A stretch of 43,476 nucleotides of DNA, taken from the NCBI RefSeq assembly GCF_029978005.1, contig NZ_JARKOZ010000013.1, positions 1 through 43,476 on the forward strand, given 5' to 3'. The position numbers and the translations under genes were made by a program. Positions within the stretch are counted from its first letter, which is position 1. The number at the start of each line of letters is the position of its first letter. Source of the DNA: Solidesulfovibrio sp. (GTDB taxonomy: Bacteria > Desulfobacterota > Desulfovibrionia > Desulfovibrionales > Desulfovibrionaceae). The notes below the pieces were generated by a model. The model was not told where the DNA came from. It saw only the letters and a list, made by a program, of their open reading frames with translations, and made no database searches. Below, one piece after another: positions 21,751-33,603 of this stretch.

Positions 21751-23640
21751 CTAGATTCCCTCCACCGCGCCGAACTTGCAAGCCGCCGCGCAAGCGCCGC
21801 ATTTGACGCAAAGCCCCTCGTCGATGCTGTGGGGCTGCTTTTTCTCGCCCATGATGGCCCCCACCGGACAAGCCTTGACGCACAGGCGGCAGCCCTTGCA
21901 GACGGCGGGATCGATGCTCGGACGGGCCAGCGCCTTGCAGCGCCCGGCCCGGCAGCGCTTCTCGAAGACGTGCTCCTCGTACTCGTGGCGGAAGTGCCTG
22001 AGGGTGGAGAGCACGGGGTTGGGCGCGGTCTTGCCCAGGCCGCACAAGGAGCCGATCTGCACGGCGTGGCCGAGGGTTTCCAAAAGCTCCAGGGTCTTGG
22101 CCGTGCCCCGGCCCTCGATGACGTCGTCAAGCAGCGCCAGGAGCTGCTTGGTGCCCTCGCGGCAGAGCACGCATTTGCCGCAGGACTCGCGCTGGGTGAA
22201 CTCCATGAAGAACCGGGCCACGGAGACCATGCAGGTCTTCTGGTTCATGACGACCAGGCCGCCGGAGCCGACCATGGCCCCGACGGAGCGCAGGGAGTCG
22301 AAATCCATGGGCAGATCGAGCATGTCCGGGGTCAGGCAGCCGCCCGAGGGGCCGCCGATCTGCACGGCCTTGAAGCCGGCCTTCTCGATGTTGCCACGGT
22401 CGTCGGTGACGCCGCCGCCGATGTTGAGCACGATCTCGCCCAAGGTGGTGCCGAAGGGCACCTCGATGAGGCCCGTGTTGCAGACGTGGCCGGTGAGGGC
22501 GAAGGTCTTGGTGCCCGGGGACTTCTCGGTGCCGAGCTGGCGGTACTTGGCCGCGCCGCCGAGGATTATGCGGGAAATCTGGGCCAGGGTCTCGACGTTG
22601 TTGATGATCGTGGGCTTGCGCCACAGGCCCTTCTGGGCCGGAAAGGGCGGCTTGGGCGCGGGCATGCCGCGGCGGCCCTCGATGGAGGCCATCAGTGCCG
22701 TCTCCTCGCCGCACACGAACGCGCCGGCCCCTTCCATGACTTCCAGGCGGAAGGACTGGCCCGAGCCGAACAGATCGTCGCCGAGGAACCCGGCGGCCTC
22801 GGCGTCGGCCACGGCCTTGCGCATGCGCTTGACCGCCAGGGGATATTCGGCGCGCACGTAGATGTAGCCCTCGTCGGCGCCGATGCCCCGGGCGGCGATC
22901 ATCATGCCTTCGATGACGCTGTGGGGGTTGCCCTCCATGACCGAGCGGTCCATGAACGCGCCCGGGTCGCCCTCGTCGCCGTTGCAGATGACGTATTTCT
23001 TGGCGCTGTCCTGGACGCGGGCCGCCTCCCACTTGCGGCCGGTGGGGAAGCCGCCGCCGCCGCGGCCGCGCAGGCCGGACTCGGAAACGACGTCGCACAC
23101 GGCCTTGGCGTCCATTTCGGAAAAGGCCTTGCGGGCGGCGGCGTACCCGCCGTGGGCCACGTATTCCTTGATCTCGTCGGGGTCGATGAAGCCGCATTCC
23201 TTGAGCACGTCGCGGCTTTGGCGCTGGTAGAAGGGAATCTGGTCCGGGCCCAGGCACTTCTCCCTGGACCGGGGCTCGACGTAGAGCAGGCGCTCGACGG
23301 GCTCGCCCTTAAGGAGCGTCAGGCCCACAATATCGGCGACGTCCTCCTCGGTGACTTTCGTGTAGAGGATGTTCTCGGGCAGGATGGTGACGAGGGGGCC
23401 CATCTGGCAAAAGCCCTGGCAGCCGCTGTGGGACAGGCGCACGCCGTCGCCGTGGCCCTCGGGCTTGAATTCGAGAACCACGTCGAGGCCGGCCTCGGCC
23501 ATCTGTTTCTCCAGGGCGTCGAGCACCTTCCTGGAACCGTTGGCCACGCAGCCGGTGCCGGCGCAGACGATGACCCGGCGCAGACCCGAGGCCGCTTCGC
23601 TGCCCGGGGCCTTGGCGGAATCCTGAATGGGACCTTCCAT
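21751..23640 (-). CDS. hydB: HydB: NuoF-like flavin subunit of bifurcating hydrogenase
   Basis: 629 residues. An N-terminal thioredoxin-like [2Fe-2S] domain (Cys26, 31, 74, 78) corresponds to the separate HndB of four-subunit enzymes and is fused here. The NuoF-like core follows, with GLRGRGGGGFPTGRKW for the FMN/NAD site and ESCGKCVLCREG for a [4Fe-4S] cluster. A C-terminal two-cluster ferredoxin domain (CKGCRLCVKACP and CVKCGACAAACK) ends the protein. This is the HydB layout of Thermotoga and Moorella trimers, where electron bifurcation takes place. Stop and next start are 2 bases apart; the ATG overlaps the HydC stop by one base. Whether NAD or NADP is used cannot be decided by eye. Confidence 0.94.
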   Translation of the reverse strand: MEGPIQDSAKAPGSEAASGLRRVIVCAGTGCVANGSRKVLDALEKQMAEAGLDVVLEFKPEGHGDGVRLSHSGCQGFCQMGPLVTILPENILYTKVTEEDVADIVGLTLLKGEPVERLLYVEPRSREKCLGPDQIPFYQRQSRDVLKECGFIDPDEIKEYVAHGGYAAARKAFSEMDAKAVCDVVSESGLRGRGGGGFPTGRKWEAARVQDSAKKYVICNGDEGDPGAFMDRSVMEGNPHSVIEGMMIAARGIGADEGYIYVRAEYPLAVKRMRKAVADAEAAGFLGDDLFGSGQSFRLEVMEGAGAFVCGEETALMASIEGRRGMPAPKPPFPAQKGLWRKPTIINNVETLAQISRIILGGAAKYRQLGTEKSPGTKTFALTGHVCNTGLIEVPFGTTLGEIVLNIGGGVTDDRGNIEKAGFKAVQIGGPSGGCLTPDMLDLPMDFDSLRSVGAMVGSGGLVVMNQKTCMVSVARFFMEFTQRESCGKCVLCREGTKQLLALLDDVIEGRGTAKTLELLETLGHAVQIGSLCGLGKTAPNPVLSTLRHFRHEYEEHVFEKRCRAGRCKALARPSIDPAVCKGCRLCVKACPVGAIMGEKKQPHSIDEGLCVKCGACAAACKFGAVEGI

Positions 23641-24146
23641 TATTGCAGCTCCTTGGCGCGGATGGCGTCGACAAGCGACACGGCGCGGTCCGGGGTCATC
23701 TGGCCGTAGACGTCCTCGTTGATGACCATGACCGGGGCCAGGCCGCAGGCCCCCAGGCAGGCCACGGTCTCCACGGTGAACAGCATATCCGGGGTGGTGC
23801 CCTTTTCCTCGGTCACGCCCAGGCGGGCGCGCAGGGCGTCCAGGATGGGGATGGAGTGCTTGACGTGGCAGGCGGTGCCGTCGCACAGGCGCACGATGTA
23901 CTTGCCCTTGGGGGTGAGCGCGAAGTGGGCGTAGAAGGTGGCCACGCCGAAGACGTTGGCCTCGGGGATGCCCAGGGAGGTGGCCACGTAGGAGAGCACT
24001 TCCTCGGGGAGGTAGCGGTACTCTTCCTGCAGGGCCTGCAGAATGGGCACCAGCCGGGCGGGGTGGCGACCGTAGTGGTCGAGAATGCCGCACAGCTTCT
24101 GGAATTTGGTTGTTTCCGCCAGGGAGGCGGCCATGTTCGGCTCCAT
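23640..24146 (-). CDS. hydC: HydC: NuoE-like [2Fe-2S] subunit of bifurcating hydrogenase
   Basis: 168 residues, first gene of the operon. The NuoE/thioredoxin-like [2Fe-2S] site is formed by Cys88 and Cys93 (CDGTAC) and Cys130 and Cys134 (CLGAC). The N-terminal helical part (YLPEEVLSYVATSLGI, VATFYAHF) is typical of the family. Ribosome site AAAAGGAGATC lies just before the ATG. Its stop TAA overlaps the hydB ATG. Short-form members are subunits of NAD(P)-linked hydrogenases and formate dehydrogenases. The adjacent HydB and HydA genes define its role here. Confidence 0.93.
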   Translation of the reverse strand: MEPNMAASLAETTKFQKLCGILDHYGRHPARLVPILQALQEEYRYLPEEVLSYVATSLGIPEANVFGVATFYAHFALTPKGKYIVRLCDGTACHVKHSIPILDALRARLGVTEEKGTTPDMLFTVETVACLGACGLAPVMVINEDVYGQMTPDRAVSLVDAIRAKELQ

Positions 24147-24735: not shown

Positions 24736-26811
24736 TCAGGGTCCCTCACGATCGCGCAGCGTCAGCAGCATGGCCGCGCCGTCGCCGGTCCACAGCCTGG
24801 CGCTGCCGGACAGCGTGAAGCGGACGAAGAAGGAGGCCGCGTCGGGCGCGAAGCCGGCCTCCAGGCAGGGCTCGAAGAGCCCGGTGGCGTTGTCGTTTCC
24901 CGACCCGGCGTAGCGGGCGAAGGGGTGGTAACTGACGCCGTCGGCGGACCAGGAGGCCTCGACGAAGCTCTCCGGTCCGGGCGAGGACACTTTGGGGTAG
25001 AAGGTCAGCCCGGCCCGGGCCACCGGTCGCGGCGCGGCCACGGCGTAGACGATCTCGGCCGTTTGCGCCTCGGCGCGCCGGCCGACGAAGCGCGCCCCGA
25101 AGCCCGTCCCGGCCTCGACGCCCCGGCTTTCGGCCAGGCGCACCGGCCCGGCCGCCGCCGGGGCCAGGGGGTCGGCCAGCACCACGATGTCCCCCTGCTT
25201 TGGCCGGTAGACGGCGTAGTCGGGCAGGGTCTCGGCCAGGGCGTAGGTGTTCTCGATGGCGCGCAGGACCTGCGGGTCCTGGAAGGTGGGGCGCAGCACC
25301 ACCACCGGGAACCGCCGGGCGGCGATGTCCCGGGCCAGCCGGGAATCCCCGAAGGACCACAGCCCGACCCGCTCGAAGAACTGGCTTTCCGTGGCGTCGA
25401 AGAAAAAGAGCTTCCCGCCGCCGCCGGCCAGAAGCGGCGCTGCCCCCTCGGCGTTGACCAGGGCCTCGGCCCCGCCCACGGCGCGCCTCAGAGCCTCGTC
25501 CCGGGCGGCGGCCGCGGCCGCGCCCCCCTCCCCGGCCGCGTCCCGGGGCACGGGCGTCAGGGGCGAGAGGAGCAGGGCCAGGGCCAGGGCCGCAGCCCGG
25601 CCGCGCTCCCCGGCCGCCCGCAATTCGCCCAGGAGCGCGCCGGCCCGCAGGGTCAGGATGATGCAAAAGCCCAGGAAATAGTTGGTGTCAGCGCCCCAGG
25701 TCGCCACGAGCTTGACTAGGAAGGGCGCATGGACCAGGGCCAGCCAGTCCAAAAGATGCAGCCGACGCCGCCGGACGTCGTCGGCCAGGGCCAGGAGAAA
25801 AAGGGCGAGAAGCCCCCAGTAGGCCCGGGCAAAGGCGGCCAGGCGCGGCCAGGCGTTGTCCAGGTTGGTGATGGAGGCGTCGGCGGCGAGCCGGGCCGGG
25901 TAGATGACGCAGTGGAGCAAAAAGGCCCCGTCCGTGATCCGGTACAGGGCCGCGCCGGCCGCCAGGCCCATGACCCCGGTCAGCGCGGCGAAACGCAGGC
26001 AAAGGCCCACACTCGCCTGCCCGACCAGACAGGCGGTGACCAGTCCGCAGCACACGGCCACGGTCTGCTGCTTGGTGAAAAGCGCGGCGGCCATGCACAC
26101 GGCGGCGGCCACCGGCCAGTCCCGGGTCACCCGGTCCCTGGCCTTGGCCGCGAAAAGCCCCGTCGCGGCGAAGGCCAGGGACCAGGCGAGCAGGTCCGGC
26201 CGGATCTGGCGGATGTAGCCGGCCATGTAGGGCCCGGCAGCGAAGCTCAAGGGGACTAGGGCGGCCAGAAACAGGCTTCGCGCCTCGCGGCGGGTGATCC
26301 AGGCCATGACGCCCAGAAGCCCGGCCCAGCCGACGTAGCTCACCAGATGCCCGCCGCCGGCCACGTCGCCCGGGACCACGGTCCGGGCGGCCAGGGCGGC
26401 CAGGGAATGGTAGATGGGCGTGTAGAGCGTCACCAGGAACGGGTAGTCCCGCATGTCCGGATAGATGCCGCGCCCCTGGGTCAGGAGCCAAATCTTGACC
26501 GTTTCGCGGCCGTCGATGAGGGAGGGCACGAGGCCGTGGACCAGGGCGTCGCGGGCGCCGCGCAGCTCGGCGACCACGTCCGGCGCGATGCCGAGGAGCA
26601 GCCAGGCGCACAGGAAGCCGCCAAGGCCCGAAAGCAGCGCCCGCCGTCCCGCGAACGCGCCCGTGAAGGACAGGGCGAGGCCGGCCAGGGCGCAGGCGGC
26701 GTAGAAGGTCGGGAAACGTCCCGCCAGGAAACCGGGGACGGCCCAGGCAAGGGTCAGGGCGAGGCCCGCGCCGATCCAGGGGATGGCGCGTCGCGGCATG
26801 CGGTCGTCCAT
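24736..26811 (-). CDS. Polytopic membrane protein, GT-C-like glycosyltransferase candidate
   Basis: 691 residues. The N-terminal about 430 residues hold roughly ten hydrophobic spans separated by short Arg-rich loops, the layout of GT39/GT83/DUF2029 transferases that use polyprenyl-phosphate sugars. The luminal-type segment RGIYPDMRDYPFLVTLYTPIYH resembles the conserved P-x-Y block of such enzymes. A long Ala-rich linker (about 435-460) leads to a periplasmic mixed domain with an apparent beta-sandwich end (ARAGLTFYPKVSSPG onward). The start ATG at 26811 could also be the ATG four codons later. It follows the ThDP-like gene by 39 bases on the same strand. Sugar and acceptor unknown. Confidence 0.65.
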   Translation of the reverse strand: MDDRMPRRAIPWIGAGLALTLAWAVPGFLAGRFPTFYAACALAGLALSFTGAFAGRRALLSGLGGFLCAWLLLGIAPDVVAELRGARDALVHGLVPSLIDGRETVKIWLLTQGRGIYPDMRDYPFLVTLYTPIYHSLAALAARTVVPGDVAGGGHLVSYVGWAGLLGVMAWITRREARSLFLAALVPLSFAAGPYMAGYIRQIRPDLLAWSLAFAATGLFAAKARDRVTRDWPVAAAVCMAAALFTKQQTVAVCCGLVTACLVGQASVGLCLRFAALTGVMGLAAGAALYRITDGAFLLHCVIYPARLAADASITNLDNAWPRLAAFARAYWGLLALFLLALADDVRRRRLHLLDWLALVHAPFLVKLVATWGADTNYFLGFCIILTLRAGALLGELRAAGERGRAAALALALLLSPLTPVPRDAAGEGGAAAAAARDEALRRAVGGAEALVNAEGAAPLLAGGGGKLFFFDATESQFFERVGLWSFGDSRLARDIAARRFPVVVLRPTFQDPQVLRAIENTYALAETLPDYAVYRPKQGDIVVLADPLAPAAAGPVRLAESRGVEAGTGFGARFVGRRAEAQTAEIVYAVAAPRPVARAGLTFYPKVSSPGPESFVEASWSADGVSYHPFARYAGSGNDNATGLFEPCLEAGFAPDAASFFVRFTLSGSARLWTGDGAAMLLTLRDREGP

Positions 26812-26850: not shown

Positions 26851-28485
26851 TTACCCCGAGGCCGGGGCCGCGTCCACTCCTTGGGGGAGCCCCGGCGACG
26901 CCGGGGCGGCGCAACGCACCTGCGCCAGGCACGGTCCCGGCCCGGCCAGGCCCTCGGCCAGGGCGGCGTCGAGCTCCCCGGCGCGGGCCACGGTCAGGCC
27001 CCGCGCGCCCAGGGACCGGCCCAGCGCGGCGAAGTCGACCCCGCACGCGGCCGGCGAGCCCTGGCCGAGCACCACGAACAGGACCGGCAGGCCGAGGCGC
27101 GCCGCCGTGACGACCTCCGCGCCGAGGGACAGCATGCCCGATACGTCCGTCACGCAGGCCACGGGGCGTTGCGGCAAGGCGAGCCGGACGCCCACGGCCG
27201 CCGCCACGGCCCAGCCCGCCGGCGCGACCTCCGAGGCCGTGAAATAGGCTTGGGGCCGATAGACCGTAAAGGCGCGGGTGAAGACCTGCCGCACCGGCCC
27301 CGGATCGACGACGAGACAGCCGTCGCGGGATAGCGCCCGGCGCAGGGCCTCGGCCACGGCAGGCGGGGACGGCGCGGCCTCGTCCCCGGCCGGGTCCGCC
27401 GGTTCAGGACGGCCCGGGACTTCGCCGCGCAGTTGGCGCAGCCAGGCGGCACGGGCCTGGTTGCCCGCCCGCAGCCGGTTGATCCTGGCCGAGCCGCCCT
27501 CCAGCATGAGCGTAAGCGCCGTGCGGCAGTCCCCGGCCACGGGCACGTCCACGCCGAAGGAACGGCCGATGACGCCGGGGTCCGCGTCCACCTGGACCAG
27601 CCGGCGCGAAGGAGCGGCCAACCTCTCCCAGTCCGGGCCGTCCTCCTCGGGCAGGCCGCAGCCGAGGACCACCAGGGTCTCCAGACGCGGCGACAGCAGC
27701 GCCCCGGCCGCCGGATCATGTCCGCCCGGGCCGAAGACGCCGAGATGCAACCGATGGTCGCCGGGAAAGGCCCCCTTGCCCCGCGCCGTGGTGGCCACGG
27801 GAATCTCGAACTGCTCGGCAAAGGCGATGAGCCGCCGCACAGCCCCGTCCCGTTCCACCCCGGCCCCGGCCAGCACGGCCAGGCGCGTCGGCGTGAAATC
27901 GCCGCCTTCCGGCACGAGGACGCGCCACAACCGCTCCACGGCCGCCGCGTCCGCGTAGCGCGGCCGGTAGACGGCCTCGTCCAGGGGCGTCCAGGCCCCG
28001 TCCCCGGGCGCGTCCGGCGTGCCGTCGGCAGGCAGGCCAAGGAGCGTCGGCCCCTGCGCCCCGGCCAGCATCCGGGTCAGGGCGGCCCGCAGACGGCCCT
28101 GGAGCCGGCGCGGGTCTTCCACGATGTAAGACGCCGCCATGGCCGGAGCCAGCAAGGAAGGCCCGTTTGCGAGGGACGCGGCAAGATCGGGAGACGCGGA
28201 AATGAAAAGCACGGGCGAGGCGTCGGCCCGGGCCGCTGCCGCCGCCGGGGCCATGGCCGCGGCCTGCGCGGCGTCTGCCGCCAGGCAGACGCCGAAGCGG
28301 CCCGTGGCCCGGGCGTGGCCGTCGGCCATGCAGGCCGCGCCCAGGGGCTGGGCGGCCTCGACGAGGACGACGGAGCTTTGCGCCGCATCGGGCGGGCAAG
28401 AGCCGGCCATGCTTCGCGACGCGGCGAACGCGTGGCGCAGGCCTTCGGCGGCGAGGACAGGAAAGAGGCTGACGGCGGCGCGCAT
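26851..28485 (-). CDS. ThDP-enzyme-fold protein (acetolactate-synthase-like) with degenerate cofactor motifs
   Basis: 544 residues, full length for the family. Order: PYR-like N-terminal domain (1-165, ADGHARATG at 54-62), central domain (about 175-330, VLAGAGV and LVQVDADPGVIGRSFG) and PP-like domain (about 370-525, ASEVAPAGWAVAAAVGVRLA). Three expected residues differ. The catalytic Glu position before ADG is Pro47 (nearest Glu is 43), the GDG of the Mg-ThDP motif reads near TDVSG (446-450), and the following NN reads GQ (474-475). It may not bind ThDP, or may bind it abnormally. ATG 28485 has GGAGG 5 bases upstream. The gene lies just before the GT-C-like gene, so it could serve envelope chemistry rather than branched-chain amino acid synthesis. 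Confidence 0.8.
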   Translation of the reverse strand: MRAAVSLFPVLAAEGLRHAFAASRSMAGSCPPDAAQSSVVLVEAAQPLGAACMADGHARATGRFGVCLAADAAQAAAMAPAAAAARADASPVLFISASPDLAASLANGPSLLAPAMAASYIVEDPRRLQGRLRAALTRMLAGAQGPTLLGLPADGTPDAPGDGAWTPLDEAVYRPRYADAAAVERLWRVLVPEGGDFTPTRLAVLAGAGVERDGAVRRLIAFAEQFEIPVATTARGKGAFPGDHRLHLGVFGPGGHDPAAGALLSPRLETLVVLGCGLPEEDGPDWERLAAPSRRLVQVDADPGVIGRSFGVDVPVAGDCRTALTLMLEGGSARINRLRAGNQARAAWLRQLRGEVPGRPEPADPAGDEAAPSPPAVAEALRRALSRDGCLVVDPGPVRQVFTRAFTVYRPQAYFTASEVAPAGWAVAAAVGVRLALPQRPVACVTDVSGMLSLGAEVVTAARLGLPVLFVVLGQGSPAACGVDFAALGRSLGARGLTVARAGELDAALAEGLAGPGPCLAQVRCAAPASPGLPQGVDAAPASG

Positions 28486-28569
28486 CTCCCCTCCGGGATG
28501 AACGTTGCACCTCAAGCGACATGATGCGCCCGGGGAGACAGCGGCGTCAAGGCCGCCCCATGCCGGCCG

Positions 28570-28597: not shown

Positions 28598-28673
28598 GTA
28601 AGTGCAACCCGTCTTGAAAAAAGGTCGTCGTGTGCGGCCGGATGTTTTCGTGCACGAAGCGGAGGCAGGAGGC

Positions 28674-31928
<3,255 letters not shown>

Positions 31929-32796: not shown

Positions 32797-33603
32797 GTGC
32801 ACTGCGACGCAACCTGCCCCATCGGCATCTTCGACTCGGGCGTCGGCGGCCTCACCGTGGCCCGCGCCGTCATGGACCGCCTGCCGAGCGAACGCATCGT
32901 CTATTTCGGCGACACCGCCCGCGTGCCCTACGGCGTCAAGTCCCCGGACACCGTGGCCCGCTACGCCGCCCAGATCACCCGTTTCCTGCTGGCCAAAAAC
33001 GTCAAGCTCCTGGTCGTGGCCTGCAACACCATGGCCGCCGTGGCCCTGCCGGCCATCGCCTCCATCTCGCCCGTGCCCGTCATCGAGGTCATTTCGGCCG
33101 GCGCGAAAAGCGCCCTGGCCGTGACCAAGACCCGGCGCATCGGCATCATCGCCACGCCCTCCACCGTGGCCAGCCGGGCCTACGAAAAGGCCCTGGAACT
33201 CTACGGCGGGCCGGACGTCCAGGTGATCGCCAAGGCCTGTCCGCTCTTCGTGCCCCTGGTGGAGGAAGGCTGGCTCGACCATCCGGCCACCCGCATGGTG
33301 GCCGAGGAGTACCTGCGCCCGGTGCTCGAGGAGCGCCCCGACACCCTGATCCTGGGCTGCACCCACTATCCGCTTCTGGCCCCGCTTCTGGCCTCGGTGA
33401 CCGGGCCGGAGGTGCGCCTGCAAGACTCGGCCACGGCCATGGCCGACCGGGCCGCCGCCGTGCTGGCGGAGCTCGGCCTGGCCCGAAACGACGGCCCGCC
33501 GCGCCACGTCTTCCACGTCACGGACATGCCGCTACGCTTTCGCGAGATCGGCGAACGGTTCCTGGGTCGTCCCATGGAGGACGTGCGCCTGGAGAAGATG
33601 TAG
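32797..33603 (+). CDS. murI: Glutamate racemase
   Basis: 268 residues. It makes D-glutamate for peptidoglycan. The paired catalytic cysteines are visible in VVACNTM (about residue 77) and GCTHYPL (about 188), with the substrate loops GIFDSGVGGLTV and YFGDTARVPYG. The GTG start at 32797 has AAAGG 8 bases upstream. It is convergent with the lipoprotein gene, with a 16-base gap between stops. Confidence 0.95.
   Translation: MHCDATCPIGIFDSGVGGLTVARAVMDRLPSERIVYFGDTARVPYGVKSPDTVARYAAQITRFLLAKNVKLLVVACNTMAAVALPAIASISPVPVIEVISAGAKSALAVTKTRRIGIIATPSTVASRAYEKALELYGGPDVQVIAKACPLFVPLVEEGWLDHPATRMVAEEYLRPVLEERPDTLILGCTHYPLLAPLLASVTGPEVRLQDSATAMADRAAAVLAELGLARNDGPPRHVFHVTDMPLRFREIGERFLGRPMEDVRLEKM

Follow-up and report, generated by a model that had tools for sequence, protein, structure and literature searches.

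A ThDP-enzyme-like gene in Solidesulfovibrio

We analysed a stretch of 43,476 nucleotides from Solidesulfovibrio sp. (contig NZ_JARKOZ010000013.1), which is referred to in its whole length as the window. It contains a gene for a ThDP-dependent-enzyme-like protein, together with a GT-C-like membrane ORF, an hndA-like gene, a divergent hybrid kinase gene and a murI-like gene (Table 1); the hnd and murI names are provisional. A GGAGG-type run precedes the ThDP-enzyme-like gene in all seven genus orthologues, four degenerate and three intact. A chance long ORF in this DNA of about 70% GC is excluded by synteny, in-frame indels and codon constraint.

Table 1 Coordinates of the gene, its coding features and its neighbours (window positions unless another locus is named)
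Feature	Position	Strand	Basis or remark
Degenerate ThDP-dependent-enzyme-like protein P0001, 544 aa	26851..28485	-	Pfam, alignment, structure match; ATG at 28485, stop ends at 26851
Shine-Dalgarno run ggaggggag, directly 5' of the ATG	28486..28494	-	
N-terminal PYR domain, about residues 1-164	27994..28485	-	Pfam and codon fits
Central TH3 domain, about residues 165-339	27469..27993	-	Pfam and codon fits
C-terminal PP domain, about residues 360-534	26884..27408	-	Pfam and codon fits
Pro47 in the catalytic Glu column (E51, standard numbering)	28345..28347	-	Alignment; numbering from excerpts of PMC3534367
Asp447-Val448-Ser449 replacing the GDG metal motif, Val448 at the Asp position	27139..27147	-	Alignment, AlphaFold2 models
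Gly474-Gln475 replacing the Asn-Asn pair	27061..27066	-	Alignment
GT-C-like membrane ORF, 691 aa, 39 bases downstream	24736..26811	-	No Pfam or NCBIfam match; outside the system
hndA-like subunit, NADP-reducing hydrogenase operon; flank in four degenerate-form species	23640..24146	-	Name presumed
PAS / histidine kinase / response regulator hybrid, divergent neighbour	28602..31928	+	
murI-like glutamate racemase gene; syntenic anchor, also beside the intact G012 and G004 copies	32797..33603	+	Name presumed
Gap ORF of genome G013, 649 aa	L037 7081-9030		

The original prediction had assigned the protein the three-domain acetolactate-synthase layout with an ADGHARATG block, and both hold. All three Pfam TPP-enzyme domains score above their cut-offs (N 51.0 bits, M 88.3 and C 54.6), and the block occupies residues 54-62. 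The PYR-TH3-PP order of the ThDP-dependent decarboxylase superfamily was recovered by Pfam, by the AlphaFold2 model and by structure comparison. The protein misses the cut-off of TIGR00118, acetolactate synthase large subunit, with 142 bits against 538.35 (an intact orthologue scores 325), and it is far under every NCBIfam equivalog cut-off among the 25 matches listed.

Orthologues share one locus and fall into intact and degenerate forms

We searched 14 Solidesulfovibrio genomes, the window genome included, and found the gene in six others, as five full-length copies and one fragmentary copy (G011). Three of these (G005, G012 and G004) keep every motif; they are 53-54% identical to the window protein, collinear with it over the full length, and have the same start and Shine-Dalgarno run. 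The copies of the window, G002, G013 and G011 are degenerate. That of G011 consists of residues 1-59 and a 29-residue C-terminal piece at contig ends, and the catalytic Glu is already lost in the first 59 residues.

The genus divides into two halves of seven species each in the murI tree and likewise in a second marker tree, of a protein provisionally named IlvB-like; every species of one half carries the gene, and no species of the other half does. Both trees unite the degenerate species in a single clade, with support of 99/96 from murI and a weaker 91/91 from the IlvB-like protein. In the gene tree the three degenerate members group at 100/100, a value that comes with a flag from the tree program for odd composition.

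In all four degenerate species the gene is flanked by hndA on one side, with the kinase, zinc-ribbon, EVE and murI genes at its opposite flank; the locus is spread over two contigs in G011. The intact gene is accompanied by zinc-ribbon and murI in G012, by kinase and murI in G004, and by zinc-ribbon only in G005, where murI is on a different contig and murI-side synteny thus fails. The common locus shows that the gene descended vertically in place and is no stray paralogue. In six of the seven gene-less species the hndA-murI interval lies on one contig, and no ThDP-like sequence was found in it at E 1e-3. Homologues in the same neighbourhood that retain Glu, GDG and NN had been named as evidence against the original prediction, and this came half true: G012 and G004 keep all of these motifs at the shared murI-side locus. 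Their orthologues are the sister lineage that reveals what was lost.

Outside the genus we collected 12 close members, four from the family, one from the order and seven from the phylum; the phylum matches G613 and G464 (34-35%) were left out of the sequence set. Glu, Asp and NN are kept by all 15 close non-degenerate members (these 12 and the three intact genus orthologues), one of which has SDG for GDG, and a distant member (G362) has Glu, GDG and ND. A further contig search added one orthologue record (S. alcoholivorans) and one distant relative. A class-level search with the window protein, sampling 297 genomes, found no degenerate member outside the genus. Within the genomes searched, degeneration is confined to one clade of one genus. 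The window genome itself encodes two other relatives, 26 and 30% identical, one of them the IlvB-like protein on contig C14; no intact copy of the ancestral enzyme was found there.

Cofactor and catalytic residues are lost in the degenerate form

Excerpts of PMC3534367 assign the catalytic and metal positions of the superfamily to E51, the GDGX24-27N motif and N471; Gly443 is found in 98% of members, Asp444 in 91% and Glu51 in 94%, and 3% have Val at position 51. With intact orthologue G012 as the reference for a residue-by-residue comparison, H47-E48 has become Q46-P47 in the window protein, N485-N486 has become G474-Q475, and G458-D459-G460 aligns ungapped with D447-V448-S449. Furthermore, DSGAH of the PP domain reads DPGPV, GPMGW reads APAGW and GGPGVTN reads DAAQAAA, while the FQDSS loop (GQVPTDWEGRGGFQDSS) and the loop after NN are mostly deleted. 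In contrast, the intact orthologues and relatives keep Glu, Asp, NN, the FQDSS and post-NN loops, DSGAH and GPMGW. The alignment therefore bears out the Pro at the active-site Glu position and the Gly-Gln in place of the paired Asn that had been read from the window alone. The reading of GDG as TDVSG was right in that the motif is lost, and its register is now refined: Val448 holds the place of the metal Asp, and Asp447 stands at the first Gly.

Pro47, TDVSG and GQ had also been expected to mark a conserved orthologous group, which they do not. The catalytic Glu column reads Pro in the window, Ala in G002 and in G011, and Glu in G013 alone, so that the Glu51 of an active enzyme is missing from three of the four; the GDG column reads DVS (window), DAR and DAS. 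The GDGX24-27N motif is absent throughout, with DVS plus GQ, DAR, and DAS plus NA in its place. G013 (L037) is an intermediate, having the catalytic Glu and the first Asn and lacking the metal Asp and the second Asn. Common to all three full-length degenerate members are the loss of the metal Asp and the changes G458D, G432A and P439A. These shared changes are best placed on the stem of the clade, and the constraint measured below thus postdates the loss.

Replacements at the lost sites vary by species, so no new catalytic motif is visible there, with one exception. Loop 446-451 (window numbering) reads T-D-[VA]-[SR]-G-[ML] in all three degenerates in place of T-G-D-G-C-M, and the derived Asp and Gly of its D-[VA]-[SR]-G segment are the one indication that anything new has been conserved where residues were lost. 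Judged from the residues missing, binding of ThDP and Mg would be gone from the degenerate protein.

Other parts of the protein are better preserved. The three degenerates keep 16, 19 and 20 of 33 family-conserved positions in the N domain, 21, 20 and 22 of 25 in the M domain, and 14, 13 and 15 of 24 in the C domain, and all of them keep LAGAGV. The helix after the lost Glu (GAACMADGHARATGRFGVCLA), which presumably lies at the dimer interface, is nearly unchanged in all degenerate forms. The RDT loop of TH3 (R292, T294) is lost in all three full-length degenerates, and a flavin site of the AHAS kind has thus not just been carried over. The TH3 motif running from [DE]280 to G286, plus G219, as excerpted from PMC3534367 and compared by eye, is present: ETLVVLG of the window and DVLILLG of G002 fit it, and EGLVLLG of G013 fits at all but one position.

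The predicted structure retains the ThDP-enzyme fold

An AlphaFold2 model of the window protein, built from a 29-row alignment, has a mean pLDDT of 83.4 and a pTM of 0.88. Its low-confidence stretches are residues 25-33, 100-109, 477-480 and 530-544, three of which lie at or beside deleted or rewritten active-site loops. The model has a strand at 442-447 followed by a helix from 448, and that of the intact protein has a strand at 453-458 and a helix from 459; these matching positions agree with the register of the GDG/DVS alignment. The best fold match is HKA synthase 8x3x (Foldseek E 1.9e-35, TM 0.77; VIA Z 39.5 over 486 residues at 2.5 A), glyoxylate carboligase 2pan gives a TM of 0.84, and TM-scores to HKA synthase, glyoxylate carboligase and AHAS structures span 0.77-0.84. 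The window protein is thus predicted to keep the ThDP-enzyme fold.

Purifying selection returned after the motifs were lost

We fitted a purpose-written codon model with MG-type rates and F3x4 frequencies to nine species, each fit being run from several starts. The fragmentary G011 was omitted from the main fits, and G043, with its low third-position GC, from the nine-species tree. Background branches had an omega of 0.117 and those inside the degenerate clade one of 0.314, and for the stem of that clade the estimate was 1.31. Fixing the stem omega cost a 2dlnL of 0.1 at 1, 39.2 at the background value and 8.9 at the inner value, and fixing the inner degenerate branches at 1 cost 153.8. The degenerate trio taken alone gave an omega of 0.302, with a 2dlnL of 159.8 against 1. 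Among 40 data sets simulated at omega 1 the estimates ranged from 0.82 to 1.25 with a 2dlnL of at most 4.5, and 20 data sets simulated at 0.3 returned 0.24-0.34. Pairwise omega was 0.06-0.12 between intact copies versus 0.27-0.30 between degenerate ones (the G000-G012 pair was not used).

The constraint differs by domain. Inside the degenerate clade omega was 0.430 for N, 0.187 for M and 0.349 for C (2dlnL against 1 of 26.0, 96.7 and 38.4), and the corresponding values in intact relatives were 0.086, 0.091 and 0.116. For the first half of M the degenerate value of 0.161 does not differ significantly from the 0.097 of the intact form (2dlnL 1.7). Within the trio, M at 0.185 stands against N and C together at 0.377 (2dlnL 11.0). 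Entry into the clade was thus near-neutral and was followed by a return to purifying selection, strongest in the TH3 domain. The indels before the C-terminal tail, 14 distinct patterns at seven sites, are all multiples of three, and the three full-length degenerate copies have no internal stop.

The intact form is clearly under tighter constraint than this. Synonymous divergence of the gene is 5.0, compared with 2.1-2.6 for murI, hndA, hndD and EVE and 5.0-5.1 for two other neighbours (neighbour fits from a single start), and rescaling to the synonymous divergence of murI would bring omega to about 0.6 and not 0.3. At codon positions 1 and 2 the GC content is 0.81-0.83 and 0.60-0.62 in the degenerate form versus 0.71-0.74 and 0.52-0.54. 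Both the raised synonymous divergence and the raised GC fit a partly relaxed constraint.

A putative cofactor-free pseudoenzyme

Of the marks of a pseudoenzyme, this gene shows the loss of catalytic residues under continued purifying selection; the non-catalytic role that would go with it is putative. We put the probability that it is a conserved pseudoenzyme, descended from an intact carboligase that lost its cofactor residues and then came under purifying selection for a ThDP-independent role, at roughly 0.57. In this reading the ancestral gene encoded an intact ThDP-dependent carboligase of the acetolactate-synthase / HKA-synthase type, and descent from it was vertical. A burst of change in the common ancestor of the four species removed the metal Asp, the glycines of GDG, two active-site loops, the second Asn and the His of the PP domain; the catalytic Glu also disappeared in three of the four. 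Purifying selection has preserved the gene ever since, presumably as a pseudoenzyme that needs no cofactor. The residue losses, the descent, the locus and the renewed selection are observed; that cofactor binding has gone and that the role is new are inferred. Its present work would be done through the retained fold and the TH3 domain, as a binding or regulatory protein and not by thiamine catalysis; the candidate target is either a protein partner or a ligand of small-molecule or nucleotide type. A narrower form of this reading is offered tentatively: a conversion in place, without duplication, into a cofactor-free sensor or regulator of a metabolite or nucleotide type, with the former TH3 domain as its working part, the sisters still active and G013 half way.

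The original prediction held that genes losing all these motifs while keeping length and domain order are rarely simple decay. An omega of 0.31 after the motif loss, with a 2dlnL of 153.8 against 1, agrees with this and makes its cofactor-free role the likeliest reading. Slow decay, with function lost on the stem, erosion since then and a residual constraint that reflects avoidance of misfolding or some remnant use, would nevertheless account for the near-neutral stem and the threefold relaxation of omega, the GC rise at positions 1 and 2, the deletion of several active-site loops, the species-specific replacements at lost sites and the absence of a copy in the other half of the genus. We regard it as unlikely, as neutrality fits the post-loss branches so poorly, three full-length copies have gone without an internal stop and with their indels in frame, the constraint is focused in one domain, and all four descendants keep at least part of the ORF and the Shine-Dalgarno run.

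The protein might instead have kept the dimer or tetramer of ThDP enzymes and pair with an active paralogue, such as the IlvB-like protein of C14, as a non-catalytic regulatory or stabilising chain. The near-invariant helix after the lost Glu and the presence of paralogues in the genome are compatible with such a role. We hold it quite unlikely, however, since the gene is the orthologue, and no duplicate, of a self-sufficient enzyme of which the genome has no intact copy left, the paralogues are just 26-30% identical, and no partner gene is adjacent. The same helix helps build the active site in the superfamily, as stated in excerpts of PMC3534367.

Comparison with known ThDP enzymes

The closest match among solved structures is to the HKA synthases BbmA (8x3x, 8xod) and CsmA (8x3z), with a sequence E of 4e-51; they are about 30% identical to the window protein and are listed as ThDP enzymes. 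We know them from the database listing, as no paper on the BbmA and CsmA structures was found in the literature searched. Acetolactate synthase (IlvB) and glyoxylate carboligase have the same three-domain layout (Foldseek TM 0.79-0.84).

Continued catalysis, through an atypical mode of ThDP binding or a chemistry that dispenses with ThDP, has precedents for the loss of single motifs: glyoxylate carboligase has Val for Glu (excerpts of PMC3534367), JanthE has CDG for GDG (excerpts of PMC12247030), and G013 itself has the Glu. Unlike the state proposed for the window protein, however, glyoxylate carboligase keeps ThDP catalysis without the Glu. Here the losses are combined, taking in the loops and the PP-domain His as well as the metal Asp and the second Asn, and since the replacements vary from species to species, these positions give no sign of a new active site; we therefore consider an enzyme improbable.

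The nearest described analogue that we found is TKTL1, likewise a ThDP enzyme homologue with an active-site deletion; according to excerpts of PMC3485151, a deletion model of it folds and has no specific thiamin binding and no catalysis. TKTL1 belongs to the transketolase superfamily and is a paralogue beside an active enzyme, whereas in the window genome the orthologue itself degenerated and no active copy is left. In the literature searched, which covered few subscription journals and gives no proof of novelty, we found neither the combined motif loss nor a paper on ThDP pseudoenzymes of this superfamily or on Solidesulfovibrio acetolactate synthase.

To our knowledge, most pseudoenzymes arose by duplication, beside an active copy. 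The present case differs in that the orthologue itself lost the cofactor site, in a dated step, with intact sisters, an intermediate (G013) and measurable renewed selection. What a ThDP enzyme without its thiamine site is good for can thus be tested directly on four natural proteins and three active controls. The window protein is probably neither a dead gene nor a normal enzyme but a lineage-specific pseudoenzyme that acts without ThDP through its fold and central domain. There is also a warning for annotation: the degenerates clear the Pfam cut-offs for each of the three TPP-enzyme domains and might be labelled as acetolactate synthase.

Neighbouring genes

A carboxymuconolactone-decarboxylase-like ORF adjoins the intact gene in five of 11 neighbourhoods outside the genus (L067, L068, L132, L133 and L136); that of L068 (8372-9100) was scanned with Pfam and the other four were recognised by eye. 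Homologues occur in two of the 14 genus genomes, G005 and G012, both carriers of the intact enzyme, where the gene is not adjacent. This protein may have been a partner of the ancestral enzyme, the genus cases being too few for proof.

We rejected a link to the divergent histidine kinase: a kinase of the same type stands at the locus in all seven gene-less species, and the kinase is therefore no evidence for the sensory role once suggested. The hybrid kinase varies in length and domains between species, with ORFs of 1108 (window 28602-31928), 1538 and 1821 aa (the others in L033 and L036).

An envelope or glycan role shared with the GT-C-like gene had been suggested from the 39-base spacing, which is as described, and from the common strand; it is hardly credible, since the two genes adjoin in the window genome alone (one of seven genus carriers, none of the six other orthologues, so that a group always neighbouring the GT-C gene does not exist), the corresponding gap of G013 contains another gene, and the nearest homologues of the GT-C gene (61, 54 and 52% identity in G010, G007 and G003) lie at other loci in species without the ThDP gene. 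The closest of them (L101, G010:C29) has one TGA within the match.

The hndA match of G011 (L120 7207-7697) is broken into two parts, which looks like a frameshift; the genome is 69% complete, and an assembly fault is possible. The gap between hndA and the ThDP-enzyme-like gene is an insertion hot spot, being occupied by the GT-C-like ORF in the window, by the different 649-aa ORF in G013 and by about 0.5 kb with no called ORF in G002.
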